From Sipunculus nudus (Eukaryota > Annelida > Sipuncula > Golfingiida > Sipunculidae): DNA of 64,000 nt. The position numbers and the translations under genes were made by a program. The notes under the pieces are model-generated. The model saw only the letters and a program-made list of their open reading frames with translations. It was not told the DNA's origin and did not search any database. Of this stretch, positions 2,170 through 58,400 are shown one piece after another; position 1 is the first letter of the stretch, and each line of letters starts with the position of its first letter. The stretch spans positions 34,322,229 through 34,386,228 of the forward strand of contig CM049314.1 of the NCBI GenBank assembly GCA_026874595.1, given 5' to 3'.

Positions 2170-2177
2170 TATAAATA
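2108..2177 (+). promoter_or_regulatory. Candidate TATA core promoter of the tandem-RING gene
   Basis: A canonical TATAAATA lies at 2170-2177, with an E-box CACGTG at 2108-2113 upstream. About 30 bases downstream begins a segment ending in a good splice donor (G|GTAAGA after 2261). The layout fits a TATA-driven non-coding first exon. Its link to the gene starting at 5056 is inferred from strand, spacing and the lack of another plus-strand gene nearby. Confidence 0.45.
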
Positions 2178-2199: not shown

Positions 2200-2261
2200 A
2201 GCAGACATCTTACCTCGATCTTCTGGTTTACGAACACACCGCTACTCTAGAACATATATAG
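2200..2261 (+). other. Candidate 5' non-coding exon 1 of the tandem-RING gene
   Basis: The segment contains no ATG, starts about 30 bases after the TATA box and ends at G|GTAAGA. Splicing to the acceptor at 5020/5021 would give a 5' UTR leading to the start codon at 5056 or 5062. The 5' boundary is estimated. Confidence 0.4.
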
Positions 2262-3735: not shown

Positions 3736-5033
3736 CTTTCCGATAACCCGCTTGCCCCAGCGCAATGGGGACGTGGTTGGACATGTAACTAAGGGGTCAA
3801 AAAGGCTGTCGGGCTCCCTTGGTAGAACCAATGGGTATATAAACCACTGTTGGCTGACCTAGTATAACACCAGAGATGTTTCAAGTATACAAAACGTCAC
3901 ATAGGAAGGCATCAGACTGGGTTTATCCCTCAAGGGTGTCCGGATATGGCTTTATTTAAGCATAGATTAGACGCATTAAAATACCTCCACCAAAATATTA
4001 AATATAAAAAAAAATACAGCATAAATATAACTTTATCCGAATTTTTATAATGACAAATGACGGACGTTCTTTTTTGCTCAATGTTCATATTTTCCTTGTG
4101 GACTCTCTTGCCCATTTAATATCGATGTTAAATAAGCGATTACTGCATCTATATGCTGGTAATTTTTATATGAGTTTTTGTTCCGGTAGCCACACCTGCC
4201 ACAAGTGTAGTCTATAGCCAACACTGGTGTTGATTTATCTAATATGTATATATCTGATATATCCAGCGCCTGTGTATTATCAAATGACCAATTATATCAA
4301 ATTCTAAATATTTTATTTTTCCAAGACAATTGTCATTTCAAAACAATTGTCTCTCACACATGTAGCCATATTTTATGCACGTTATGATAACCCCACATAT
4401 GCACCAGTCCTAATATGTTACTCGCCCCATAAACTAATAAAGATAAGAAATTTAACACCAACACAAAAAAAATGGTTTCCTATGTCCTGGCAGACTTGTT
4501 TACCTGTGAACCCCTCCCCTTCTTTGATCCTATATTCTGTGTTACCTAGAGTACTTGTTTAACATACGGCAACATTTTGGCAGTGTTGTTTCCTGTTATC
4601 TCTCAGTGACACAGGGTATGTTCTAAAAGAAATTTGTATCTGCACAAACTTGTTATCAAGCGATCCCCGTCAGCATAAAATGAGGCCTATATATAGGACC
4701 ACTTATAGGACGGGCTTAAACCGGAGCTAAATACATGCACGGTGTACAGCCTTGATATGAATGATCATAAGTGAACAATAAAGTGGTTTTCAGTCTGTGA
4801 GAAGAAACTTTTAATTTAACTATACAATTACAGAATCACAACTGCATATACTTCATTTACATATGCACAAATATTGGTCATTTTCACGTTGAAATATACC
4901 CTGCACGGACAGATGAAATGTATTGTTTCTGAGATAAGAATGCTTTAGTTATCATTGCCTACTCCTGCTTCAAATATTTCTGATTTTATACTATGATTAA
5001 ACCTCCCCTTTACTTTACAGATATACTTTGCGC

Positions 5034-5051
5034 ATGCGTGACCTCAGATGA
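5034..5051 (+). promoter_or_regulatory. Five-codon upstream ORF
   Basis: ATG at 5034 reads MRDLR and stops at TGA 5049-5051, four bases before the main ATG at 5056 and in a different frame. If the transcript includes the exon starting at 5021, this minimal uORF would precede the main start. The ATG context is weak. Confidence 0.35.
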
Positions 5052-5055
5052 CCAA

Positions 5056-8000
5056 ATGATCATGGCGCTAAGTGAACTAGAAGGAATCGTTCTAGGTATG
5101 TTTCGTCTCATTAGTTTTACGGTACCGTCCATGGCAAAAACTTCCTCGTTTAACACAAGTGCAGAGTTATTTAAAAACCATAGACACATGAATTATACTA
5201 CGCTCTTTACACAGCGCTTTACCTATAGGGCTACTGCCTATATCGTAAGGCGCTGTTTGTTATGACCTCGTATCCTGAATTGCAACACTAGAGGGGAGCA
5301 CTGTATTTTTGTCCAATCAGATGAGACCTTGTGCTGGAAGACAAAGCCAAGCGAGGAATACACGGAGCCAATCATATTCATTTCTTTTTGAGTGACAGCT
5401 CATCCCCCAGCGTAACCGTCTGAACAGGCCACAGGCTCAGAGAGAATTGCCCCTGACGTGGTTTGCTTAGGGCCTTGGGCTCATTGGATGCTCGGCCGGT
5501 AAGCTGTAATTTAAACGAAACGTAACAAAAAGCCTGCGTGCACACCTCGCTGGCTGGTTTCAGTTCTGCAGACAACAGTTACATGGCTACGCTAACACAG
5601 TCATACTGTCATAATCGAAGCGGTCGATGATGCGAGAATGCATAGGGAGCAATTTAAATTCGACCGGAAATTCATCAAGCGGCGTTTGAAACGCAGCAAT
5701 GGGCGGAGCCAGGATGCCTGTCGAGTGTTTGTTTATTGGCATCTGATTGGCTGCTTGTCACATCATACGCACGTTTATTTCAGTGGACAACGAACCGCCA
5801 TCTGGTGTCTAAATATATCATAAACGGTCAAAGCTGGCAGCGTGAAAATCAGTTGCTTCTTTAGAAGCGGAAGATTTTTGCTGCCTCGGGAGCGTAGAAT
5901 TATACTAGAGCAGTAAATCTTCACCTAACGACCGCCTAAGTTGATCGACCACCTCAAAATAACCACTTGATCATGGTCCTGATTCTTTCCTGATCTTTAT
6001 AAAAGACCTCGCTTAGACGATCACCTCAAAAATCCGATAACTTTATCGAGGTCTCGTTGGTGGTAGTTAATTCGAGATTTACTGTATATCATTTCAAACC
6101 CGGTGCCTTGTTTTTAACTTTTAATCTTCTCTCCTTTTTTTCAGGTTTGTCCTTGGCTGGCTTTCTCTTCCTCAGTTGCTCGCTCTTTTTATGCTTACGT
6201 TTTATGTAAGTATTTTTATCAGTTATAAGTAATAATTTAGTAAAAATCAATAGTTTTCATGCTAACGTTGAATTTTTATTGTGTAGTGAGGTAAAATGGT
6301 TAGGTAAATCATTCAGCGTATGTAACTGACGAGTAAGCTAAGAAGAGTTTCAGTACCTCGCGTATTTTCAAACCTCAATATAGCATCTATATTATCCATT
6401 TTGTCTGCGTCAACTTGTTTGTATATCTGTGTATTCTATTTTTTTTTTCCTTTCTCAGTAATGGCCCTAATTATGTTGTTATATGTTCGTGTCCGTTTTG
6501 TCAACGATTAAAAATATTAAAATATAGTATGCACACTATATGCAAATATTTCTTGCCATACGCGCCATAGGAATCAATGAAAGTAGATCGGCCTCACAGA
6601 GCGCATACTTATGCCACAATCTACAGAACTCTCCCCCTGTCGACTTGAGACTCGACTTGCCTCCCCCCCCCCCCCCCCCCAATTTTTTTTATCGTAAAGT
6701 TTTCTGTCAGCCCCTGGCCTGGATCCCCGTCCAGATCCTTCATATCCTTTCACCTACTCATAATAATTCTTTGCAGTTCAATGAAACGTTTTCCGATATT
6801 ACAATAAAGCAAAAAAAAAACTTGATATACCGCTAGGATTTTTAAGAATCCTTTATCATTATTTCCAAAGAATTCCCACTGAAAGCTTGATAAAAGGAAC
6901 AGGTTTTACATACACAGACTTAGGACTCGTCGCCGCCCAGCGTCCCCTCAAGCGTTCCAATCGACAACTACCGAACGTAAATCTAGAATAAAGAAACGCG
7001 ACACACTCAAGAGGCACATGGAGGAGACGTTTATTGCCGGACTTGCCGAAAAACAAGCTCAGGAGAGTGGGTAAGGGTGCAGTATCTGTATCTATTAAAT
7101 CTGGAGAAAAAATGTTGGGAAAACCTATTTTGGCATTCCTTTGCTGGGAGTTTTGTACATGTGGCTTGAAAAGAGTTAAAGTTGTTTTCGGTATTTTTCT
7201 TGGCAAGTTTGCAAATTCCACCTAAAATGTAAATAAACAAATTAAACAAATCGCCCGCTCTATATTTTACGTTTTCTGGCAGTCTAAGTAAAAAACTAAG
7301 GAAGTTTAAAACTGGTGAGAAGACAACATCCACAGAGTTAAGCAATCAATAGACAAATTTAGAAGAAGAAAAAAAAGTCGATTAGGTGTAAGACAAATCG
7401 CTTCAGGGACTCGTTAATGCACAGTGCAGTGTGTTTGTTATATCGAATTGATTAATATTTATTTTCTTGTCGTTAACCTGGTGCTTATTTACACAATGTA
7501 ATTTTTCTTCTTTGTGCCACATATCCTTTGCTTGACACCAGTAATTACTAATTGGTTGTACGTGTTATTTTATCTTATTTAAAAAACAGCTATCTCATGA
7601 AGCAGATTGAATGACAACTTTCCAATTTCCATGATTTCAGAAATCCAGCCTGGAAAATCAAGAATGGGCTTCGGCGGGCAGGCCGCTGTTCAATATGTCT
7701 CGAAAGATACAAAGGCGATCCACACGAGATATTCTTAGGTTTTCTCAAGAAATGTGGTCATTATTATCATTTCGAGTGTATTTGGGCGTGGTTAGAACGC
7801 AATAGATCATGTCCATTCTGCCGAGAGAAAGTCCGCTTGAAAGAAGAGGATATTCAAGGGTTGTCGCTGCATTCGTTCCTTGCTGGGGATGTCACAGTCA
7901 GTGCCGGCGGAAAGGACATGACCTGCATTATGATGGGAGAAGATAACATTTCTTTCATGTCCAGTCTAAGTTCTCGCATGACTTTCCGCGAAGCGCTGAG

Positions 8001-8397
8001 CAGGCGCAGTTCTCGTGCAAACCTTCTTGATCACGTGGACGCTGACGACCATTCGCATCATACGGAGATCTCAAACGGTCCCGCGCAGTTACCTAGTGAG
8101 GTGCAACAAAACGCGGAGTCCTTCGCAGAACTGCAGTGCCATGTTTGTAAAAACAATTTCAGTGAGGCTACAGATGTGATCATAGTTGGCTTTGGGCCAT
8201 GTTGTCGCCATTTTTATCATTACGGATGCATGTCTTCAAGTGTCACTGATGACAGATGTTGTGAGTTGTTTTCTGGTGAATGTGATTTTTATGCTCTTTA
8301 TAGAAATGGATATCAACCAGTTTTGCGAGAAGAGGAGGTCATGAGTGCAGGCCCACCCGATGACCCCAATCACCTCCAGAGTGTACAAGTATCATGA
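5056..8397 (+). CDS. Membrane-anchored tandem RING-H2 protein (putative E3 ubiquitin ligase)
   Basis: Assembled from exons 5056-5095, 6145-6205 and 7641-8397 (858 nt, 285 aa). The phases agree (1, 2), and the splice sites are strong: CTAG|GTATGT, TTTTTTTCAG|, TTTTAT|GTAAGTAT, GATTTCAG|. Residues 10-31 form one hydrophobic helix spread over exons 2 and 3, followed by basic residues, so a single-pass anchor with cytosolic C-terminus is expected. A RING-H2 follows with ligands C50, C53, C72, H74, H77, C80, C91 and C94, plus the tryptophan and proline usual for E2 contact. A second module (C200, C203, C222, H224, H227, C230, C241) keeps exactly the same spacing but has Phe where the eighth ligand should be. 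The start may be 5056 or 5062; the latter has the better context (-3 A, +4 G). No orthologue is recognised. E3 activity is inferred from the first RING only. Confidence 0.72.
5911..6084. mobile_element. 174-bp MITE, CAGTAAA ends (copy 1)
   Basis: The left end CAGTAAATCTTCACC and the right end (reverse complement CAGTAAATCTCGAATTAAC) form inverted termini, with TA on the right flank. It resembles the copy at 31438-31617 throughout. CAGT ends and a TA target suggest a Tc1/mariner/pogo-type non-autonomous element. It lies in intron 2 of the RING gene. Confidence 0.75.
6206..7640 (+). other. Intron 3 of the tandem-RING gene
   Basis: Runs from donor GTAAGTAT to acceptor gatttcag. It contains a C20 tract at about 6661-6680. 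The overlapping open frames at 6859-7345 on both strands are not supported by composition or splice sites. Confidence 0.6.
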
Positions 8398-11300
8398 ATT
8401 AAAATAATCTCAGTCCTACAAAATAACAGTCAATGGTGTATATCCAAGAAAGAGATTTTACTCTATATGTAATATGGACGTGGGGATGAAAGGGGAATCG
8501 GGTACTCACGTACTCCAGTTATGGTAATTATGGACCGTAAACGACTACTCCAGTCTTCCATTACGAATCGAGTAGTCGTGTGGAAATACATTTAAATTTA
8601 CGAAATACTGTAAAATTACAGGCAGTATCATACGTTTATTCACTCAGCACGCTTTTACGCCGAAATCGAGCTACTGCGCATGGTAATTGTAAATTACAAT
8701 AACAAAGTCTATGGAGCAAATATAGAGGGTGCATTAACAACCTTAATTCCAAATAAAACGATTATAAAGAATATTATTGTATTTTTTGTTTGAAATTTCG
8801 TGAAACCCGGGGATCTAAATTTCGGCGAGACATCGGCAACGTGTCGGTGTAAATTTACGCAAATACAACGTGGAATCCGGTTTAAACAGTTGGTCTCGGG
8901 CCAATTCGAATTCGGCCGAGGAGTTCTGAGTGGTCCGGTTCCATGTTTTCCGCCATGCTTGATGTATACAGTGCTTGTTTAAAGACCGCTGAAGTAGCGT
9001 GCCGGGTGAACAAGCAATTGAGGTGACCTACCATCTGTCTCAATAGATCTTGACCCTGTGTGGTGGTTGAATTGTTATATTAAGCTGGAACCACTATCAA
9101 CGAGTTGACATAACAAACTGTGTCTTAAATTTCTTAGGTGCTACAAACTGTCTATTTAAATTCTTAGGCGTCAAAAACTATAGACTGTGCCGGTATTACT
9201 TGTGTTTATCTTTGTTAATAAATTGTAAATAAACATTTCATTTGGTATTTTAGTATGTGTTTCATTTTAAAATACAACGACACATTTTAAGTAATTATTC
9301 AACATTCCCTGAGGTATTATACAGCTTTAAAAAATAAAAAAATCAAGGATTATGGTACCTTAATGTCAAAACAACCCCTGACTCAATCGTTTGATCCTTT
9401 AGTTTACCAACGTAACATGTGAGTTATATTTATCTATTTAACTACATTATACGAGGTCACACGAAAATACATGCACTGCATATACATAAAATATATGCTT
9501 AACAGTTCTGATGTTTGCTTTTTAGGTAAAGTGAAATTGTGAGTACCAACAAGATGAGAAATGCTCATCAAGTCATCTAATTTTCAAAGAGAACCCTGAA
9601 AGGCCGACCAGTTGGACGACTAAATAATTAAAATAACTAAATAGAATTAAAATTAAAAGAATAATATAAAAGATGGAAGAAAATGCATAATATGTAGAGG
9701 CTTTGAATTAGGTTTCAACCATATGAAAAATATAATTGGTACAGAATAAAATGCGCCTCCCTTTCTCTGCATTGCTCTCCAGTAATTTAATTAAGGACCG
9801 CCCCGAAGTAACTGAGATTCTTTCAGCCAGCACCCGCCCCGCAAAATTTTCTTTCAGCCCGCACCCGCCCCGCCCCACATTTTTCATGTTTCCGGCTCGC
9901 AGTCCAGCCCGCAAAATAAAAGGTTTATATATCAAGGATATTTTACAGCATAAATATCATCCACGCTTATTATCAATATATATGGAATGTTTGATGGTTA
10001 GAATGAAAAATTAATTTTAATACGTTTTTGCAATCATTCAAACCATAATTCATGAAATATTTAAAGACATGTTTGATTGGTTAAATGGATTTAATATATA
10101 GATAATAATTTAACACACCTTAAATATGTTTACATAATTTACAGGAAAATAAATAAACCCTTTGCTTATTGTGTCTGTTTCTACTTAACTTAAAAAAAGA
10201 AAAGACAAAAATTATATCTTCAAAGTATGTACACCCGAAGTTACCCTTTGGTTTAGTATTGGCTATTCAAAAGCAATCAGACTACTGTGATGTGTTGCTG
10301 GTTAAAATCTTTTCAGTCATAATCTGCTAATTAGCTGAAACTGAGACTAATCAGGTCAAGGGAGAAAAGGGGTACTCTGACTGATGTGGCTTAAGGTTCA
10401 GGATGTTCATTGAGATAGACATGACCAGAGCGGTGTATCTTCTAGCAGTCATCACCACATTATGCAGTGCCCAAACAGGGATTTGACCAGCCAGTGGTTA
10501 ATGTCAGTAACAATTAGACAGCACATGGAGTGAAAATTAGATAAGGAGTCCACCTTAGGCTTTGTGGAGCCCCAGGTCAATTGAGTCATCTACAGAGCCA
10601 CACAATGTCTATTACAAGATCAAAGGTAGTCAAGCCCTTGCTTCACTCCCAGCCATATTATGTAATATGGAGACCTGTCACAAGTAAAGGGTTACAGATC
10701 ATATACAACATCAGGCCAGGTAACTTTATACAAAGTTATGACCAGCTTCCATTGCAAGGATAATTGTTTTAAATCTAGATTTCAGATTAATGATGCATTA
10801 TCTATTTTGTATATAACAAATTGACGTTATACCTAGAAAAGACACATTTGCATAGTGTTGTTAGAACTGTCAGTCAGTGTAAGGGGTTAACAGGAATTAA
10901 AATTTATTCAAATTTATCTTTTCATATTACTATTTTTACAACACCTGAAAACATATTATACAACAATATAATTGTCTTCAAATGATAGTTTTTTAAAGAA
11001 TAATTTTATGTTTATGTTCCATGAACTGCCAGATCATCGACCCGCACCCCGCCCCGCCCCGTCCCACATCATCGAAGAATATTCAAAATGTTCAGTCACT
11101 TGTGCACGAATGAACCTGGGAATATGGGCCGAATAAATGAATGCCCACATAAAGGAAGCTTGTATTCCTTGGAATGCAGATTTCTATGTAAAAACTCCTT
11201 CGATTACCGACAGCGCGGAGTTATTTAAAAACATTAGACACTTAAAATATACATCATGTCAAACCTGTGACTTGTTGTAAAGTTTTAAGAAAATCAACTA

Positions 11301-15496: not shown

Positions 15497-18400
15497 TCAA
15501 TGTCTTGAGAATCTTTCCAGCCGTCGAGCTCGCATTTCATCCAGACCACCTCTGTTCACAGAATGATTCTGTGTGTCAAGGTCTGGATACAGCCGGGATG
15601 AGGTACCGTCCATCCGAACATCATTACTGTCTGGATGAAGTGGGGGTGCACTGGGTTGTGTACCTGTTTAAAATGAAATATATATTACTTAAATGAAGAA
15701 TATGTAGGCATATATACAAGAGTTGTTTTTTCTTTAACAGAACAAGGGTCCCATGAGTTACAGTGCTCAGCCGAAGTTGCCTTCAAGGTAAAAATATAAA
15801 TTAATATCAAATGGAGATAAAGTCCAAGAGGAAGGAGTAATATAGGCCATGGCTGGTTGATATGATTTCTTTGTATTGCTGAGTAATAAATTGTTGCAAA
15901 TAATATTTTGTTATTTGACACCTGTGATTGCAGTCCACTGTTTTTAACACTCCTTTACAGGAGTAAGCAAACGGTTTCAAGGCAATATTTTGGCAGTTAC
16001 AGATTTATTTTAAAGGGAAGAAGCTAATTTGCATGTTAATTCAACATGCTTTATATGTGACTGGGCCCCTTTAAGCCAGGGTTGGAGCTAGGTTCACGCA
16101 CCTGTACCTGTACTTATACTAAGGACTTAATTAGCTGTACCTGGTTTAATGTAATGTAGGTTTGATACTGGAAATGGACAGGTTTACTTGCATACATGTG
16201 AAATGTATGCAGTTATAACAAGGCCTTTAAAACTATATCCACAGTGCTGTGTCACTCACGGTCATTAAGACTGTTGAGCATGGCTCTCTGTAGCTGTTCT
16301 TCCTCGGTCATGCCTGCGCTGTATGAATGTGTGTCTTCTGCTCCTGGCTGCTCCTGTTGGTATTCCCCTCTGTCAGTTTGACCTTGACCTCTGTGTGACC
16401 CCTGCCTAGTGTTGTATCTGTAATTTTGTGCTGGTTCCCTCTGCCACCGGTTTGATGCTGTGCCACTGTAGTTCATGTAACCAGGACCTGTGCTACGTCT
16501 GGTGGGTGCTGGAAAATAACATTAAATAATTGTCATAATCTTCTCAAGTTCTGAAGTTTATATACATATGAATGTGAAGCCTCAGGCTGTTACACAGTTT
16601 ACCTAAATTACTTTTATGCTAAAAATACTGGGTGACAGTGACTATATAATGTCACACCCTAGAAGGAATTGACTTTCCAGGTTCTTTTAAAGGGTGGACT
16701 AAACCAGCTGAAACTCACACATACACTCAAAATGATGTCAAAGGCTGTGTGTAACAAAACCAATAAAAGACCTGGGTTCTCTAAACCTAAGTTCCAATGC
16801 AAACATTGATACATGATACTACATATATATATATATGTATAAACTTCTTGAATAAAGATCATACTGGATAAATATTCAAAATAAAAAGGACTCCTTTATT
16901 ACACACCCATACCAATACCATGCCCATGAAATATATATAACAAGCTCCAAGCTGTAGCATTGTAACTGAGTAACAAATGTGATTACATGATGTTAACACA
17001 CTATGCACATCATACATCAGATTCAGTCAAGAATCTTGCCAACATCTATTAAATCACGCAATAAAAGTGTACAGGAAGCTGACCCACCAGTATTTGAACT
17101 AATAAAGATATATAGTTAAGCCAAAAAAAATGTATGGTTCTCAGGCGGTCCATATCAATTTTAACCCCTCTCATCAAAATATTTATTTTGATTTTCATCT
17201 TTCATGAAGATAAAATAATACAATTTTGATCAGATTTCCCTTGTTATGTAGTGCTTTTACCTGCATAACATATCTGTTATTATCATGCTTCTCCCTGATC
17301 ATATGATATTTTTATCAAAACAAACAAAAAAGGTAAAAAAAAAATTAAATCTACCACCCACACTGATTTCTGAAAAAAGTGCCTGAGAACCAAACCTTTT
17401 TTTTGCCTAAACATAAGAACATTTTATCTGAATTATAAGTCCATCAGGTTTAAGAAAATTTAATTTTATCATATCCCATTCCACAAACCTGTGTTCCCCT
17501 GTTTTTTTTTTATAATTTTCTTAAAGTTTATATTTATCATCAATTTCCTTGAAAACTACATCTGGAAGTGATGACCTAATATAGCAATTAAGAATTTTAC
17601 AATAAATCTTCAGTTTATGTTTCACAACTATTTATTCTCTTCACAATGATCTGGCAGATCATATGTGTCTCTGCATTCATGAGTAGCCATCTTTGTTTAA
17701 GCTGATTCAATTTCTTAGAGTATTTTAATACCTGACATCATCCAATGAGCAACTTTAATTTGAGGCCGTTTTTACATGTCACCAATAACCTTGACTGCCA
17801 TAAGTGATCCTGATATGTAGACCTGATATGTAAAATGTAGATTGATTTCTCATATTTTTATATAATTCTCTTTCTTGAATAAGGTGTAAGGTAGATAATT
17901 ACTGACATAGTTGAAAATTAGGCCCTTTAATCTCCAACCATAAAATTCATATTTTCACCCTTGAAAAGAAACTAATAAAAAATTTCATAGCTTAAAACAG
18001 TTGGACACGAGGGGATGAAACAAACTATAGTACCGGTACTCACTGAATGGTAAGTCCATCATGTATTTTAGGGGACCCTTGGCATAAGCTAACCCAACCA
18101 AGATTCCAGCAAGGTGACCTGTAAATAATCACAAATATGGGCAATATATGACATGACAAAACAGACGTATTAAATCAGATGACATTTTAAAATACCTAAA
18201 TATTTTCCTGATAGTGTATGGTACACGTCGCATATGCACAAAGAGCATTATGAAAGCACATTTAACAAAAATAAAAATTCATACAATAACACATAATAGA
18301 ATCATCATCAATAAGCACACCATTTTTCAACTTCCAAAACAGTGAAAGGTATATAAATGATCCACTGAATTAATATACAAAGACATTGCATACAGCAGAC

Positions 18401-20126
18401 AGTCCTAGTAATAAGTGCAACTTGACCATTATGGGCTAAAGCTCCATAAAAGAGACACATAAAAGATTAGGACTAAATCTGACTTATGTCAGTATTTTTA
18501 TGCTCTTCATCAAATTAAATAACTTTTTGTGAGGCATTTCATCACCATTCATGTTTCATCAGCCTTCCTTTAATATTTTCATATTTTTTTTCCCTCTAGA
18601 TTTGCTTAAAAATGTATCATAATAAAGCAATATTTAATGTACTTGCATTTTAGATTTGCCTGGGTAATTTTGAGGATGACATAATAAGACTGTTGGTGTA
18701 ATAATAAATTGCATGTATACTGTTTGTAAGTACTTATTTATGTGTGCATGAATTAATCTCAGGAAATATGTGCATGCCTTTTACCTTTGTAACTGAACAT
18801 TATACGTACCCATGAACGAGGCATTTGGTATCATTATCTGTATAAGTACCAGTTCTGCCCAGCAGGCATATCGAGTGGGAACTGGAATGATGTTCATTAT
18901 GTACTCAACACCAGGTGGCAGCATATATGTGGTCACTACTTTCAGCGCAAACACAACACCTGAAAAATATACACTGTCTGGTTACAAACAGAAAACCGAT
19001 GACTGGTTGTTGATTACACATGAGCAGAAATTGAGAGGTTATTACAGTCGAGCCTCAAATTTCTGTATCTCTTTATTCCGATAATTTGTTTTTCTGAAAT
19101 TTAAAGTAAGGAACAAAAAATTTACCTCGTTTAAGTGTCTTTCGCTGCTTTTATAATGAAAATAGGATTAATGATGATTAAAAATGATCTCATGAGATAA
19201 CGTTGCTTGACGGCAGGATTAACATATTAATGAAACTTTGATAATAATATGCCCCATGTACTAGCAGTATACTTCTTGAAAAATGTCTGACCTGGCATAT
19301 CTGTAACCCCAATTATCTGAACAAATTTTATGTTCCCCATATCATTTGGATATTTGAGGTTCTACTGTAATTGTTCGTGGTGAAAGAATGTGAAGTAAAT
19401 TTATGCCTCCTTTCTTTCATTTGCAAAACTCATCAGATTTGTGAATAGAGGTCCTTGTCTGACTTTGGGGGGTGCCCAAATGTGGAAATAAAAGAAAAGG
19501 ACAACCTTGGCACTATGGAATCAGTGTCTGTTGGCTTATTTATATAAAAAAAAGTTCAAGAGATATCTTTAGCAATGCAAATCAGATATTGCAATAGGCC
19601 TCTTATAATAATATTAATCTCACATACAAAAATCAAAGCAGACAATTTTACAATATCGTACTATGTGACAGCACTTACCTGAGAATCCAATGGCACAGTC
19701 AGTGAGATAATGAGGCTCCCCGAGAACTTGCTCAGCGAAAAGACCGAGACCAACCAACACACAGTTTGTAAGGAGAGTGAACACTACTAAAAGGTATGCA
19801 AAATATTCACTTCCAAATTTACGTTCCAAACTCCTTCCCTTCCACAAGAATGAAATCATATTAAAATAAAGGTGCCAGTCATTTATGTGATAAAACGCTG
19901 CAAAGATGAGCCGCTGCCACTCGTGGCGGTACCAAACATTGAAGGCACTGATGCACACTTCACTGTTTGACGGCCAATAGATGTCCAATAGTCGTAAAAA
20001 TACTGCCACGTGGATCCCTACTGTTGTTAAGGTTACTGGAGGAATGTGTTCAAATCCCATCCTGAACATCTGGTAGCCGAGAAGGACGATACCCAGCCCT
20101 GGGGCACGTCTTCTTTGTCGCATCAT
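15497..20126 (-). CDS. RHBDD1: Rhomboid-related intramembrane protease RHBDL4
   Basis: Coding exons 20126-19679, 18959-18810, 18118-18044, 16508-16260 and 15663-15497, all GT-AG and phase-consistent, give 1089 nt (362 aa). The family is an ER rhomboid protease that cleaves unstable or ubiquitinated membrane proteins for ER-associated degradation. Visible hallmarks are HxxDWHLYFNM in the rhomboid core, catalytic Ser149 in GFSG and catalytic His201 in GHLAG. A ubiquitin-interacting motif (TEEEQLQRAMLNSLND) lies at about 292-307. The C-terminal MRARRLERF at about 351-359 matches the p97/VCP-binding motif RxxRLxRF. The protein is longer than I recall for the human one (about 315 aa), mostly in the low-complexity Gln/Arg/Gly linker before the UIM. 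Two consecutive ATGs open the frame; the first is used here. A 5' UTR intron precedes it (acceptor before 20140). Confidence 0.96.
15664..16259 (-). other. RHBDD1 intron 4
   Basis: GTGAGT donor and CAG acceptor, both on the minus strand. No repeat structure was recognised inside. Confidence 0.85.
17120..17408. mobile_element. GCCAAAAAAA-type MITE (copy 1), RHBDD1 intron 3
   Basis: The ends pair as GCCAAAAAAAATGTATGGTT and its inverse, and include GGTTCTCAGGC. It belongs to a family with copies at 26368, 37516, 40461 and 48901 and fragments at 56391 and 61634. It carries no coding sequence. See the 40461 copy for the target site. The rest of this intron (16509-18043) is plain AT-rich sequence. 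Confidence 0.85.
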
Positions 20127-20140
20127 CCTTGATTAAGTCA
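20127..20140 (-). other. RHBDD1: 5' UTR segment of RHBDD1 exon 2
   Basis: Minus-strand acceptor CTTTCAG ends at 20141, and the start codon follows 14 bases into the exon. The transcript therefore begins in a separate upstream exon. Confidence 0.7.
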
Positions 20141-25778: not shown

Positions 25779-46101
<20,323 letters not shown>

Positions 46102-48062: not shown

Positions 48063-48900
48063 ATAACAGATAGCCTAACAGGGAGGATGGCCAAAACCAT
48101 ATATTAGAGATTGTCATGAGTAAAATAAGATAGATGAGCTAAGGAGGAATTAACCATTTAAAGATTAAATTAAAACTAGAATACAGGTATTCGACAAGTG
48201 ACTACATGTATCCGCCAAAATCAAGATTGGTATGGATGAAATAAGGCAAGGATTGAGTGGTAATGGGAAATTGTGAGATGTGTAGCATAATAGCATTGAT
48301 GCCTGCCATGTAAATATGATTGTAGGTGGTGCCACCTGTCATTTGCACAAGAAAGCTATCCAAGATGTGTTCACATGCAAAATTTCAGGTGGATAAGTCC
48401 AATCACTGCTAAGATGAAGAGTGATTTTATAGGCAGCGGCGTCCGGCTTAAGAACATTGTATCTGCAAAACTGTTTTGGTGGATACAATTAAGATAAAAC
48501 AAAGACAAAACCAGTCTACTGAAATATGTATTTTTCTTGTTAAATACAGAATTAATTCACATTTCATATAATATGTATCAAAGTTTGGAGCATGAAATGA
48601 AGTTGTGACAAAATTCTATGCGTTAATACTATGCACACTTAATTCAGTTACAAAGAATATTTTCAGTGCTATTCCTAAGATTTTAATTTTTATCACTTTC
48701 CACATTTTACATTGTCACTGTATCCAAAATTGTTGATGGTTAAGTTTTCTTTAAAATGGGGAAAAAAATATATTTAATGCTTGCATGAAAACGTTACACA
48801 ACACATTGTATGAACTTTTGAATGCAGAACCATAAATTTAGAGTAACTTCTTGTAACATCAACATCTGTTCAGTGGTAATAATAGGTTTTCGATATTTAT

Positions 48901-49424: not shown

Positions 49425-52400
49425 CTAGGGGGCACTAACAGGCTGGTTCGTAAGTTTGGACTGCACAAGTTTTCCGTAACCTCCTCGTCCACTGTCGTAA
49501 TCTGTTCGGTATTCATCTCGGACCTGCAATAAATAATATTTAAAATTTTAGTGCAGCACATTTACAGATATCAGCATGTTATAAGATACACAGAAATTGG
49601 CAATAAGTTAAAACAAGGCCTACAGGCCTAATGCGAACCTGTGCAAAGTTTGGGAGTATGAATGGAGGTTTATTTTTCAAATTTAATATTGATCCTTTTA
49701 AGTCCTGCATATCTACCTTAGTCATTATGATTTCAGCAAAATGGACATTTCGGACCTGCAAGTTTCAGACTAGGACATTTTAAAACTAGAATATGGGTAG
49801 TCAACAAGGGACTATGTGTATCCGCAGAAATCAGAGGGGGACGGGTGAAGTGAGGCATGGATTAAGTGGCAAGGGGAATAGAGTGAGGTGTGTTGCATAT
49901 TAGCATGGATGTCTGCAGCGTAAACGTGTCTGTAGGTGGTGCCACCTGTCATAAAATCGAGAAAATTGTCCAGGATGTATAAACCTGCAAATTTTCAGGT
50001 GGATAAGTCAAACCACTTCTGAGATATGAGTTATTATATATCAAGGCAGATGAACAGATGGGTGCTGTACATTAATGGTTGCAGGTGCCGCCACCAGTTT
50101 TGCTTATGATGAAGAGCTATGTGAGATCTATACACAAGCAAAATTTTGGCCTAATCGGTCAAACAGTTCCCCAGATATGAGCTTGGATGTCTGCAGAGTA
50201 AAAGTGAATGTAGGTGGCGCCGCCTGCCATAAAATCAAGAAAGCTGTCCAGGATGTATAAACCTGCAAAAATTCAGGTGGATAAGTCAAACCACTGCTGA
50301 GATATGAGTGATTTTATCCCAAGGAAGATGAACAGATGGGTGCTGTGCATTAATGGTTGCAGGTGGCACCACCAGTTTTGCCTGTGTTGAAGAGCTATGT
50401 GAGATCAATACACATGCCAAATTTTTGCCCAATCCATCAAACAGTTTCAGAGATATGAGCTTGGATGTCTGCAGAGTAAATGTGAATGTAGGTGGCGCCA
50501 CCTGTCATAAAATCAAGAAACCTGTCCAGGATGTATTAACCTGCAAAATTTCAGGTGGATAAGTCAAACCACTGCTGAGATATGAGTGATTTTATCCCAA
50601 GGCAAATGAACAGATTGGTGTTGTGCATTTATGGTTGCAGGTGGCGCCACCAGTTTTAACTATGATGAAGTGCTATTAGAGATCTATACACATGCAAAAT
50701 TTTGGCCCAATCAGTCAAACGGTTCCTGAGATATGAGCTTGGATGTCTGCAGAGTAAACGTGAATGTAGGTGGCGCTACCTGTCATAAAATCAAGAATGC
50801 TGTCCAGGGTGTATAAACCTCCAAAATTTCAGGTGGATAAGTCAAACCACTGTTGAGTTGAGTGATATTATCCCAAGGCAGATGAACAGATGGACGCTGT
50901 GCAAAAATGGTTGCAGGTGGCGCCACCATTTTTAGTGTATGTTATAAAGCTATCAAAGGGCTACATTTGTGCAAAATTTTTAGCCTGATCAGTCAAACGG
51001 TTCCCCAGATTTGTGGGTTTATCTGTGGAAACAGACACACAAATGGACACTGGGCAACAAGGAAAGGTCAGAGGTCATCCAAAAATGAGGGCGCAGCAGT
51101 TCACAAGTGACCTGATGATATCCCCAATTCGCTTAAAATGCAAACCATTTTTTTCACACAGTTGAAAGATATAGTTCCAATAATCTGGGAATTCTGCATC
51201 TAAACATTATGTCTAGACGTCTAGACACATTGTCTAGACACCCCCAAGAGCCAGGTCAGTTGCCATGGTGATGTCTGGACCCCACCTGTTTGTACTGAGT
51301 GACCTCTTGACTTGGTTGTTGAAACTCAGTATGTTGTCAAATCTGTTTTTAAATACAGAAAGACTTTTCCAATTGGCTACAATGTTTTTTTTAAAACTGT
51401 ATTTACCCAATCTATTCTTATAAAACTGGCAGAACCCTACCATAGAATAATTCTTGTAAAGTTTAAACCAATCAGCTTAACAGTTTCATCATAAATCTGT
51501 GTATAAGCTAGAAGAGTTTAAAATTACATTTTCGCTTGTAAAAAACACCTCAATGTAGGTGGCGCCACCAATACCTCAAAATCAGATATGACATATGTGA
51601 CAAACATTGGTATAAAATTTGGTGATTATAGCTATAGCCATTTCTGAGATTTTAATTTTAGTGCACTTTTTTTGGACAGATGACTAAGTTCAACCTCCCG
51701 TAACTCTGCCAAAAATCTCTGAACTGGAACCATTCGAACAAACTTGAGAGAGATTGTTCCAGAAATCATTTCTGTGAAATATTGGACTATTTGGCTGGAC
51801 AGTTTCAGAGAAGAAGATTTTTAAAGTTTTTAAGCTTTTTCTCTATAAAATCTAAATTAATGCAGATACCCAATAATAAGCTCCAGGGCACCAAGTTTCA
51901 CATGTGACTAATTCTTACATGTAATTTGGAGCTGTTAGCGGAAAGCCAGCGGCGGACGGCTGACGGCTGACGATGGACGGACGACGCTGCGCCATCACAT
52001 AAGCTCACAGGTTCGCTAAAAAACAAGAATTGCTGAAGGTGACAAGCCACATGTTGCTGCAGAAAGCCATAGCATATCTTGCTCGGTTCAATTTTAACAC
52101 CAGATGGTGGAAAGGCACACACATAAATGCCCCGTGCATAAAATTAAGATAAAATGGTAAAAGCCTGATATCATCAATGATGTGTGTTTCATCTGTCTGC
52201 ACATTTTTCCTTCCTGGTCTTTTGGCCTGTTCATACTTGTAGCTTTTCTCAGCATACAACCTAAGTGGCCATCACAGGTGCTAGAAGGTAATTCATTTGC
52301 TGGGTCAATAGAGCACACCCTTGTGGTAAAGACTTTGGCAAGGAGTCTTAGTGCAGACGGCCGTCAGAGCAGAACGCTGACCCACATCCTCAAGATCACA

Positions 52401-55400
52401 AGTGCAGCGCCCTAACCATTGCCCCACAATGCTCCATATGATACAACTAGTAGCCAAATAAATATGCTCTATACACAGCATTCAACATTGTGTCAAATTT
52501 CCTGGATATAAGCAGGCTTACTGCTGCCCCAAAAATGTATTTAACACAAACAGCAGTTTCAGGGTTGACAAGCTGATCAGTTGGCCAACTACAGTGTGTT
52601 ATGAAATGTCCAACAAGTCATCCCACCCTCATATGGCCAAACCCAGCAAAGTAAGCTAAAAAGAGCAGTGTTTTACAAATATAAGATACAATAAAAGCCT
52701 GTTAATATTCATTTAAGGTCACAAAGAAGTGAAGAAAAATAGAACAGGCAACAGTTTGGATGACTCTCAATTGACCTATCCATGAACTGTATGTGACCTT
52801 AATCACATATTCATTCAATGAATAATCATGAGCAGAGCAATTACAGGTAACAAATCAAGTTACCGTTGGCAATGTAAACAGTCAATCATCCCGTAAACAC
52901 AAAATTTCCATAATTTGGGCACGTAGTCTGCACCAGTTCCTATGTCAGCATGCTTTCAAGGATATTTTTTATACAAAGGAGATATAAGGAGTATAAAAAG
53001 TTCTAGGCCAAAGGTTGCAGGAGCCATTCCGCCAGCTACCTAGTGAATAATAATGTCTTACCTGGCACGTAATTCTTATGAGACAAATAATCCAAAATAT
53101 GGCCAAACATTTCACAATTATTACAATATATTCATCACCAGAAAACAGTTATGACAATTCAAGTAAATGACATCAGTCAATGTGACATCATACCTTATCG
53201 ACCTTTGTGACATCACTAGTGTCTTGTAAAAGGCTCTCACAACCATGGGCATGGAAAGCCTTGTGTAGGGGAGTGTACTTGGGGCTCATTAATATAATTA
53301 GGTTAAAAGGCGGAGCATATGGGCTGTGGTGGATATGTCAATTGTTTTATGCTCCTTTAGTTTTGTCTCATTGGTCTAATAAGAGAGTGGTTGTGCAAAG
53401 GCTGGGAAATAAGTCATTTAAGCTGCATCTGATGTAACTGGGTAGTCCCACTCTTGTAAGGCTATCAATGCCACACCATGCTCCTATACAGATAACAAAT
53501 TCTGCTATCAGGTAGATCATCCCTGATTTATTTATTGTGATCAGTATACATACCTGGCCTCCTGATTTTCCTCGTCCATACTGTCTGCCTTCTCTGAAGC
53601 CAGCATCGTAGTCTGTTCTGACGATGCGGTCATCTAGACGCGTCCCATTGATGTACCTCATACAGTTCTCAGCTTCCTCTCGTTGGTAATATCTATTTCC
53701 ATGTTAAAGAACTGAAGACTTAGGAAACCAAGTATGCTGGCAAGGTTAAACATACAAATTAAAAATAACTGTCCAGTCTCATACATTGGTATGATAGTGG
53801 CTCTTTGTTCACATTTTGTCCACAACTAAAGTGTGACCCCAAAGAAGATAAGCAGACCATACAATACAAGATCACTAAGTACATCAAAATCAGAATTTCA
53901 TATCATCGTTGACAATAAATATTTTCCTCTGTTCCATCATTATTTAATAGAACCTCAACTAGAACTGTAGTCTGAGCTGACATGTATTCTTAAAGTTATA
54001 AAAATATTTGTAATAATAATGCGTATTATGTCATGGATCATGCAGCTGGCTATGGGTCATTCTGGATCAACATAAAAGTTTCCTAACGTACTTTCTCCAA
54101 TTGGGACTGGTTTTCCATTGTTATCGTTCTGTGTGTTAGTAGAAACAGTCCAAGTATATTTGTTTACAATAATAAGACTGCATGACCAGGGGTCTGATCC
54201 TTAACATGCGCAACAACTCCCAATCACAGAGAGGAAACATGAAAGAAGAAACACAGGAGATACACTGGTTGGAAATTGGAAAAATCTTGATTCTTTGTGA
54301 AGTTGTGCAGTATGGATACCAGGTGGCGTGCTTGCTATGTTTATATTTTGTGCCAATGGTTGCATCCGGTGCACAGGAGTGGCAAACAGTTCAAAATGTA
54401 ATACTGGCAGATACCATATTTAAGTAAAGGACAAGCCACAATACCTCATGTATAGTTAACATACCTGGTATGTAAATAGGTCACTTTAATACATGTATGA
54501 TGATAATAAAAAGTTTTCAAGTTCCACGTTTCACTAGCACGTGCCACATCAGCATAAACTCTGGGACAAAGGCACTCCCAATTGCAAAAAATGGCTCTGA
54601 CCCTGAGCGGGGACAAAGAAATCTGGACTAATACACAGGAACAAGGTTTTCTGTTGGAGGTATGTAGGCTCTGACTACACATCTAGTTGTATAAACCTTT
54701 TAAATATATTAGCACGGATTTTCACTGTGGTACAGGTACTTAAGTCTTAGAAAGGTAATATACCTGTCAAGTCAGAAGCCAATTACCCCCCTCCCCCCCT
54801 TTTCATCCACCAAAAACCTTTTTTGTGGCCTGAACACCCCCTCCTCCTTTCCTGACCTGAGGACCTTTTAGGCTTTGTCATTATTCCTCCTGGGTTGGAC
54901 CCCCCTTTTTCCTAAATCCTGGATCCACCCCTGTCAAGTGCTCAAATATAAAACTGGCTTCCTATTTTCAGTCATACTCATTTTATTTCAATTAGGCGTA
55001 ATCAATTGACCAAATATCCTGCTTGAATTGCTGGTGAAGAAATATACCATCTCTACAGATAAAGGATACTCTACAAAGCAAAACCCACATGGGGTCTTTT
55101 TATACTTGTCCAGTCCCATGATGACTCTCTTGACATCCCCGCATCGGCTGAACAGTTCGTATATCTGCTCCTCTGAGGTATAATATGACAGGTTACCCAC
55201 ATATAATGTGGTGGTATGGAGCAATGCATTCTCCTGGTCGTGCCTGGTTCCCTGAAAGACAAAACAAATTACAGTCAAGCCCACTTTGAGTCAAAACTGT
55301 TAATAGAAAATCCTGTTTATTGTCACATAAATCTGAAGTCCAAAACCATTTCCTATATATACAATGGTAAATCTGACCGTTTAATATCATGGAATATTGT

Positions 55401-58400
55401 CATAATCCCGTTTATTGTAATGCTTGGAACCCTCCGCAGTGATACCAGTTCGAAGTTAATATCACATCAAACGCCGACACGGCGATCAACGAGGCCAAAT
55501 AGCCTGTAATCGGTCAGGCGTATCAAACGATCAAATCTCGCACCTGTGTACGGCAGGCAAGTCCAGTGATGCATGCAGTTCACTCCCCGTCACTTAGCTA
55601 CTAGTAATTAACGTCTTGCCACAGTAATCCAGATCATTTCGTTTCTTCGTACCTTAACAAGGGCGATGTTTGCGATCACATATAATACGAAATGAACTCC
55701 TGGCCTTTAAAAGGCTGTGGTCTACACCTCAGTGACGTTTCGCTGAGATTATATGAAGCACTAGCTTTAAACGTTGCTTACGACTTGAAATCCCCTTAAA
55801 GGGTCTACGAAAAGCTTGAGGTTATGTGAGCACTGGAGGAGATACCCGGTCAAAAACCTTAATCGCGGCGAAACTTCAGAAAGTTGACAATGGCATGACA
55901 ATGCCCGCTCCCCGAATAGGCCTATCATAAAGACGATCAGGGAAAAGCGCAAAAGTCGGGGAAAGAATTATCTAGTAAAAAAGTTTGTTACAAATAACGT
56001 TATAACAGACGCTATATCTCTTTCTGTAGGCAAGTTGGATTTTTGTCAGTTCTTGCGGCATGCGGCACAAAACTGACAGGAAATAAATTGTCATGTGAGA
56101 AAAAACGTAATTTGATATGCCGTTGTGCAATAAAAATAATCATAAATGTTTCTGTCTCTTTTTTATTGACAATTTATTAAATATCTTTTGAGACATAACG
56201 TATTTCTATGACTCCAAAGGTCATTGATGTTGAAGCCCGCATGATGTCACATCCCAGTTATTATCATAATTTATGCATGCACCAACGATATGACAATAAG
56301 CGGGCTTGACTGTATATATTAAATTACTACAGGTAAATTACATCCAGCCTGGATGTCCATGATCCAGTGCTGTAAGCTAAATATAGGTAAGGCCAAAAAA
56401 AATAAGTAATAAGTTTCTCAGGCACTTTATTTCAGAAACTGATGCAGGCGGGCAGCATTTAATTTTAATTTTTTTTTACCATGAAAATTGCTTACATATA
56501 AATTATTTCTCAGGCACTGGCATAGAAATGACAACCAATGATTAAATAAACAGTGCATAGGTCAAATTTGTCAAAAGTTTGAAAGGGATCTTCGAAATAT
56601 GTGACATGTTTATTTCTTTTACATGTATATTAACATACCAAGAAGATTACATAGGACAACGGCTGTGAAAACCTCAAAGGTGAACACCAGATCACAAAGA
56701 AAATTTTATACAAAAATACATTAACAATTAAAAGCTCTAATTGGTCAATTGTTTTGGAGGATTTATCAATGTATTTAAGTAGATTCATTGGTAACAAGGG
56801 ACCCATGGGTCACGGCGCTCAGCTTAAGTTTGAAATTTTTGCAAATGCAAAATATTCTATTTTAATGTTTTTCATTCATATAAGCATATGAGAAGCTAAG
56901 AGGGAAGAGGCCCTCCTACTTAGTTATAGTGATGTTCTAAATATATGATTGCAAACTAATACTCTGACAAGACTGTCATGAAGAAAAACAGTAAAAGTTT
57001 TGAGATACTGTGATGCATATGAAAAATTTACAGATGGACAGGCAAGTGGACAGAATCGACTAATACCTTTATTTGACTTTCAAGGGAATAATGCATTTAA
57101 GTTTATATATAAGCCTATTATTTAAGCATATCCACTTTTTCCATTAAAATAGTTTTCATCTGATTAATTTTTTTTATTTACAAGTTTTATAAATTTGTAT
57201 TAAAAAACACTGAAAATATAAGTTAAAATATTATAATTCTAAGTTGCAATCATTATATATCCAGAGTGTAGCTCAAATTGGGTCATATTATGCATACACA
57301 TATATTTTTATTATTTTTAAATCACAAATGTTTAAACTGAAATTAAAAGAAAATAATGCCACAACATGGCATCTACAAGATTATTCCTTCAATCACTGTT
57401 AAAAAGTTTTGCACATTGGAGTTTTAAGCTTAACCTTATTCACCGAAATAAAATAAAAGATTCAGTAAATTTGGTTAAATAAAAACATCTTTTCAAATAA
57501 AGTATACACACTGTTGGTTGAATGAGGGACAAACAATATCATTATGCTAATTACAATCTAAGCTATAATTTATTACTGGAATTAATAGTCAATTTCACAC
57601 CTGGTGAAGTTTTTACTCTTCTCAAATAAGGAATTACTTATCTGATGAACATCTACACTTTCATAGCAATACACCACTTTGTGGACACAATTAAATGTGC
57701 ACTTTAATCATTGTAACCCTGGTGGTACATAATAAATCTAAAATGTAGCACTGCATAGCCAAGAATAAAATGAAATACAGAAAATAATAACATTCATCTA
57801 GTTAATCCACCATCTGGGGGGGGGGGTGTGCAGGGCAGAGGGGAAGCCTGCTAGTAGTGGCAAAGCTGAGCCAAGGCAAGCTGCCTGGGGTGGGTTACAT
57901 AATGCAAGTGAAGGCTGTACTACTAGGAGGGCTAGATGTAAACAACACTTGACATGGTGTATGAAAACTTGAATAAAAGCTACTCTTTTCAATCAATTCC
58001 TTTGAAATTTCAGATTTAAAAAAATTAAATCCTTATGTTTATATGATGTGAAAATTAAATCAACAGTGCTTACAGGGAAAAAATGTGCCATTGCCAAAGT
58101 TGGACAAAATGAAGGTATTGATTTTTTATTTAAGCTAATAACTTGAAAAAATTGCAAAGTTCAGATCTAATTTTGGGTAAACAATTGAATCTTGATTAAA
58201 TAAAGTTATATTCCTGAAAAAAAGTCTCCAGCTTCAGCAATTCTCATCTTAGGTGTATAAATATATTTCTTGATTTTTTAAAAAGTGCATTATGTTTGGG
58301 CCCATACCGTATTTCATCTAATCGTTCGACCATAAAAAAATAAATAAATTTTACAGAGGTCGATTAAATGGAGGATAATTAGAAATTAGTACCTTGCAAA

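Follow-up and report, generated by a model that had tools for sequence, protein, structure and literature searches.

Overall, we believe that the 64,000-nucleotide stretch of Sipunculus nudus DNA analysed here (the window) encodes a single-pass membrane-anchored RING-H2 E3, in which a first zinc module would act as the ligase and a second, probably an old duplicate of the first, would have a docking or regulatory role. We hold this composite reading with slightly better than even confidence. At the level of sequence, three of its components are supported in silico: the gene model, the membrane helix and the catalytic-type first RING. The gene looks like an animal-type one for a small membrane-anchored ubiquitin ligase; such ligases are well known, and the combination here departs from them only modestly.

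The general pathway can be envisaged as follows. The short acidic N-terminus would lie in the lumen or outside the cell, one helix (about residues 11-33) would span the membrane, and the basic flank and both zinc modules would lie in the cytosol. There module 1 would bind a charged E2 and transfer ubiquitin. Module 2, which probably arose long ago by internal duplication, would adopt a RING-like fold in which the first zinc site (C200, C203, H227, C230) is intact and the second (C222, H224, C241) has either been lost or been restored by a neighbouring cysteine. Without the usual E2 binding, it would present a docking or regulatory face to a substrate or partner.

The predicted gene and its membrane helix

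The features of the predicted gene are as follows, all on the plus strand.

2170..2177, plus: TATA-box-like TATAAATA, candidate core promoter by pattern match
2200..2261, plus: putative 5' untranslated exon, start approximate, donor TAG/GTAAGA
5021..5095, plus: exon 1, predicted acceptor 5021, coding from ATG 5056 or 5062, donor after 5095
6145..6205, plus: exon 2, most of the predicted transmembrane helix (about residues 11-33)
7641..8397, plus: exon 3, an open frame joined by an in-frame splice, with both zinc modules, linker, C-terminal tail and stop
7687..7821, plus: module 1, canonical RING-H2, residues 50-94, best stretch here for Pfam zf-RING_2
8137..8271, plus: module 2, RING-like, residues 200-244, eighth position Phe244, with sub-cut-off family matches
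8281..8283, plus: Cys248 codon, a possible substitute ligand for module 2
9217..9222, plus: AATAAA, candidate poly(A) signal by pattern match (further AATAAA sites at 8752, 9228 and 9333)

A preliminary description of this DNA had proposed that two small exons join in phase to the RING exon and add a hydrophobic helix, and both proposals are borne out. Exons 5056-5095, 6145-6205 and 7641-8397 join in frame into a protein of 285 residues, the junctions 5095/6145 and 6205/7641 both being GT-AG with phase kept, and the protein has a 19-residue hydrophobic stretch (residues 11-29, mean Kyte-Doolittle hydropathy 2.36) that begins in exon 1 and is completed by exon 2. Together with the acidic N-terminus and the basic flank, this helix suggests a type III anchor; by the flanking charges, both modules would be cytosolic.

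Splice sites were scored with crude matrices of approximate base frequencies, so only the ranking of the scores is meaningful. By that ranking, the first junction has a donor (5095) within the top 1.9% of the window's GTs and an acceptor (6145) within the top 0.03% of its AGs. The sites of the second junction, donor 6205 and acceptor 7641, rank no higher than the top 4.2% of GTs and of AGs, respectively, which, with a model drawn from sequence, leaves some room for a different gene structure, wherein exon 3 comes from a different transcript and the protein lacks the membrane helix. We consider this very improbable. Exon 6145-6205 ranks first among 96 candidate internal exons (24-400 bases long, acceptors at about 5150-7500, stop-free and keeping the frame between exons 1 and 3), with a score of 14.9 against 8.3 for the runner-up, and skipping it shifts the reading frame. 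Moreover, the 260-codon open frame that contains exon 3 (7615-8397) has no in-frame Met ahead of the first RING, and an upstream exon is therefore needed. We infer that the ligase gene gives rise to a transcript.

The 5' region is less sharply outlined. The motif TATAAATA at 2170, the donor after 2261 (top 0.6% of GTs in the window by the same crude matrices) and acceptor 5021 (top 0.3% of AGs, likewise) may together delimit a 5' untranslated exon. A coding exon at 2200-2261 was rejected, since a search of 2196-2261 returned no ATG, although one may lie further upstream. Within exon 1, the context of ATG 5062 (A at -3, G at +4) is better than that of ATG 5056, and the protein may therefore be 283 residues long instead of 285. 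Upstream lie two very short ORFs, starting at ATG 5034 and ATG 5048, which possibly exert translational control (5034-5062); the TGA stop of the second overlaps ATG 5056. In the intron that separates exon 1 from exon 2, positions 5925-6087 are 74% identical to 31452-31620.

A complete RING-H2 and an altered RING-like module

Module 1 reads C50-x2-C53-x18-C72-x-H74-x2-H77-x2-C80-x10-C91-x2-C94, with all eight C3H2C3 ligands in RING order. When the whole exon 3 protein is compared with Pfam, zf-RING_2 is matched at E 2.3e-14 and 53.8 bits (cut-off 27.3), and zf-C3HC4_2, zf-C3HC4, zf-rbx1, zf-RING_UBOX, zf-RING_11 and zf-ANAPC11 are also above cut-off. For all seven families the best stretch is module 1, with the scores of zf-RING_2 and zf-RING_11 gaining from a second stretch outside it. 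The module carries I52, W84 and P92, which we take to be the E2-contact positions, and Arg95, directly after the last Cys, at what we take to be the linchpin position.

For comparison, we used 43 background RING-H2s. Of 85 loci, 39 supplied 44 distinct stretches and 46 none; one stretch was discarded because it shared its core with another. This set comprises 7 RINGs from a viral collection and 36 from a prokaryote collection and is not an animal RING set, and its search pattern fixes C-G-H-x-F-H-x2-C-x3-W. Ile or Val occupies the first E2-contact position in 41/43 of them and Pro the last in 41/43; the Trp is fixed by the pattern. Against the PDB, an 80-residue module 1 query matches 38 sequences at 22.4-42.8 bits, including RNF4, EL5, RNF13, AMFR, RLIM and RNF24, of which a two-RING RNF4 construct is the best match (42.8 bits), with EL5 at 36.8 and RNF24 at 29.8. 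The suggestion in the preliminary description that one copy kept catalytic potential thus agrees with the ligands, the contact residues and the zf-RING_2 match, and module 1 would be expected to have E3 ubiquitin ligase activity.

Module 2 reads C200-x2-C203-x18-C222-x-H224-x2-H227-x2-C230-x10-C241-x2-F244, seven ligands at the spacing of module 1. The identical spacing described earlier (C-x2-C-x18-C-x-H-x2-H-x2-C-x10-C) is therefore present at residues 50-91 and 200-241, and Phe does replace the last ligand, at position 244. By the cross-brace order of RINGs, zinc site 1 of module 2 (C200, C203, H227, C230) is intact and site 2 is one ligand short. Three cysteines lie outside the ligand pattern of module 2 (221, 240 and 248) and none outside that of module 1; a substitute ligand is therefore possible, and module 2 may be a ligand short in name only. 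At the E2-contact positions, Ser234 stands for Trp and Glu242 for Pro, and the linchpin position is Ser245. Thus, the earlier statement that the second module is without E2-contact features holds for the Trp and the Pro but not for the first position, where Val202 is kept.

Compared with Pfam on its own, module 2 yields nine family matches at E up to 1, none above its own cut-off and all of RING or PHD types, SLX1_C among them. The two top families are SLX1_C (E 9e-4) and zf-RING_2 (E 0.0049), with seven others weaker. AlphaFold models made without relatives have mean pLDDT values of 36.2 and 40.9, too low to inform on the fold. Module 2 may have a RING fold, and we propose that it is a pseudo-RING for binding or regulation.

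A different role for module 2 would be that of a built-in RING partner, packing on module 1 and helping to hold the donor ubiquitin, as MDMX and BARD1 may do for their partners. Both modules are on one chain, and the linker of 105 residues permits such pairing but does not demand it. A dimeric partner RING contacts the donor ubiquitin in many RING E3s, but RING-H2 ligases that act as monomers, for example RNF38 and RNF13, also exist (PMC8897509). We regard built-in pairing as improbable. More speculative, and slightly less probable again, is an active/inactive RING pair in one membrane chain, wherein a duplicate-derived pseudo-RING, its second zinc site reshaped by the new cysteines, clamps the donor ubiquitin or senses zinc or redox state. 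If true, one chain would do what MDM2/MDMX-type pairs do with two.

The origin of the second module

We favour internal duplication as the source of the two modules because none of the 43 background RING-H2s resembles module 2 as closely as module 1 does; our confidence is reasonable but by no means strong, and we do not regard duplication as proven. By BLASTP the two modules align at 30.4 bits with E 5e-8 (a single comparison) and 12/43 identical residues. In global alignment to module 2, module 1 scores 70, the 43 background RING-H2s having a maximum of 57 and a median of 32, in a score that also rewards equal loop length. Under a loop-neutral score, which omits the ligand columns and the pattern-fixed aromatic column, none of the 43 background RINGs reaches the score of 3 obtained by module 1, their maximum being -5; the only eukaryotic controls, fragments of RBX1, EL5 and RNF4, score -13, -9 and -11, respectively. 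When the non-ligand residues are shuffled, the observed similarity is reached in 0.03% of 200,000 trials.

The shared spacing itself is not a private mark of the pair. While the x10 loop occurs in 24/43 of the background RING-H2s and the x18 loop in 1/43, RBX1 also has an x18 loop together with a non-Cys (Asp) eighth position. RBX1 accordingly lies at the centre of the main competing explanation, that module 2 was acquired independently of module 1 as a divergent RING resembling RBX1 in the length of its loop and in its missing last Cys. In phmmer searches, RBX1 chains are the best PDB matches of module 2, at up to 17.1 bits (E 0.064) and aligned beyond the last ligand; the N-terminal part of the protein itself (an 87-residue module 1 query) scores 18.8 bits against module 2, a comparison run with filters off where that with RBX1 used default settings. 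The best-domain scores are 18.0 for module 1 and 15.2-16.0 for the three RBX1 chains listed. In the reverse direction module 2 scores 18.4 bits as a match of module 1, below all 38 of the PDB sequences matched by module 1, and a PDB search with a two-row profile of both modules again retrieves ordinary RINGs, RBX1 included. Nonetheless, module 1 exceeds RBX1 in each comparison with module 2, by phmmer (18.8 against 17.1 bits), by global alignment (70 against 54) and by the loop-neutral score (3 against -13). We therefore consider independent acquisition unlikely, while giving it more weight than any other alternative. The internal duplication proposed in the preliminary description is thus strengthened by the background comparison, which no RING-H2 out of 43 matches, and weakened by RBX1, which trails by only 1.7 bits.

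At the DNA level the modules are identical at 65/135 positions and at 14/45 third codon positions, the latter near chance. A duplication would therefore be old, and other species should carry the same layout. These values also bear on whether module 2 does anything at all, since it might be a degenerating relic without selected function inside a working single-RING ligase. The eighth ligand, the Trp and the Pro are gone from module 2, and we found no sign of an acquired function. Against this, the frame is open across 260 codons, and seven exactly spaced ligands persist despite the near-chance third positions; provided that the modules are duplicates, this points to long maintenance. Decay of this kind appears to us unlikely, and a little more so than an independent origin; a maintained old duplicate is the reading we prefer.

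In searches for relatives, no stretch of the viral contigs matched exon 3, and of 51 pattern matches to the module alignment in those contigs none was confirmed by tblastn. The prokaryote genome contigs gave 112 pattern matches for exon 3, none confirmed, and phage records gave no match at E up to 1. NCBIfam returned two matches far below cut-off (the best, rad18, at E 0.025) and PHROGs one, at E 0.34. Within the 64-kb window there is no paralogue of the ligase, the best tblastn match outside the gene having E 0.97. Among 48 RING-pattern open frames in the 85 background loci, none has a second RING-like pattern.

Known ligases and genomic surroundings

By analogy, the best functional model for this protein may be RNF122. 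Like RNF122 and RNF24, the predicted ligase has an N-terminal membrane helix followed by a RING-H2; unlike them, with one RING each, it has a second RING-like module (200-244) 105 residues after the first, and among the PDB matches of module 1, RNF24 (29.8 bits) ranks below the RNF4 construct (42.8 bits). The literature describes RNF122 as an ER-localised E3 with an N-terminal TM and a C-terminal RING, its localisation TM-dependent, that carries out polyubiquitination with UbcH5a-c, Ubc6 and Ubc13 (PMC2905333), and, in a second source, as having neither a signal peptide nor a PA domain (PMC4021871). A third names RNF24 and RNF122 as potential candidates for membrane-protein ubiquitination at the Golgi, endosomes and lysosomes (PMC6669922).

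RNF32 resembles the ligase in having two RING-H2 modules per chain; it differs in that the ligase has a membrane helix ahead of the RINGs, which RNF32 is not known to have. The IQ consensus has basic residues after Ile-Gln, and the linker of the ligase, by eye, has a sole Ile-Gln without following basic residues, whereas RNF32 has an IQ motif. No IQ family was found between the RINGs at E up to 1 (Pfam, exon 3 protein). RNF32, with the IQ motif between its two RING-H2 domains, is described as the first dual RING-H2 protein to be reported from mammals (PMC12317687).

RBX1 resembles module 2 in its x18 first loop and its non-Cys eighth position, but it has Asp at that position and keeps the Trp and Pro, where module 2 has F244, S234 and E242; RBX1 also has a cullin-binding part. 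An RBX1 paralogue was rejected on the differences in the Trp, the Pro and the eighth position, and an RBR (RING-IBR-RING2) ligase because no IBR or RBR family was matched at E up to 1 in Pfam.

Two RINGs in one chain are uncommon. In flax, 563 RING proteins have one RING, 9 have two and 2 have three (PMC8601054), a two-RING share of 9/574 by our own sum. In the literature covered here on dual or tandem RINGs, RNF32, RNF24/RNF122 and bivalve E3s, mostly non-subscription papers surveyed by title and abstract opening and thus weak evidence of novelty, we found no membrane protein with a TM, a RING-H2 and a RING-like module in this layout. In this context, a membrane ligase with one complete and one altered module would offer a small natural system in which to ask how a catalytic zinc module, once duplicated, stops binding E2 and takes on a different role, with wider consequence limited until relatives are known.

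The window has 36% GC and no N, and neither a tRNA nor, at gathering thresholds, any Rfam match was found in it. A Pfam scan of ten other open frames gave three matches at E up to 0.01, and a PDB match marks one further exon:

19623-20132, minus: rhomboid exon (Pfam E 9.5e-14)
31861-32376, plus: open frame ending in an ankyrin-repeat match (Ank_4 E 6.3e-5)
53371-53703, minus: nuclear cap-binding protein subunit 2-like exon, no Pfam match (PDB match E 1.3e-21)
54991-55290, minus: RRM exon (Pfam E 1.3e-12)

The rhomboid exon, unmatched in the PDB at E up to 0.001, presumably resembles the RHBDL4/RHBDD1 group, and the exons at 53371-53703 and 54991-55290, about 1.3 kb apart on the same strand, probably belong to one gene. 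The rhomboid, ankyrin, RRM and cap-binding exons, together with the introns, fit an animal genome.

Repeats are also present in the window. Positions 49897-51010 form a local tandem repeat with a unit of ~278 bases and copies 81-89% alike, and a related stretch lies at 48170-48431. A dispersed family of ~200-270 bases, 78-85% alike and in both orientations, occurs at 17154-17432, 26498-26695, 37558-37823 and 40437-40706, and an interspersed repeat has two copies, at 42976-43741 and 55619-56315, that are 84-87% alike in two blocks.
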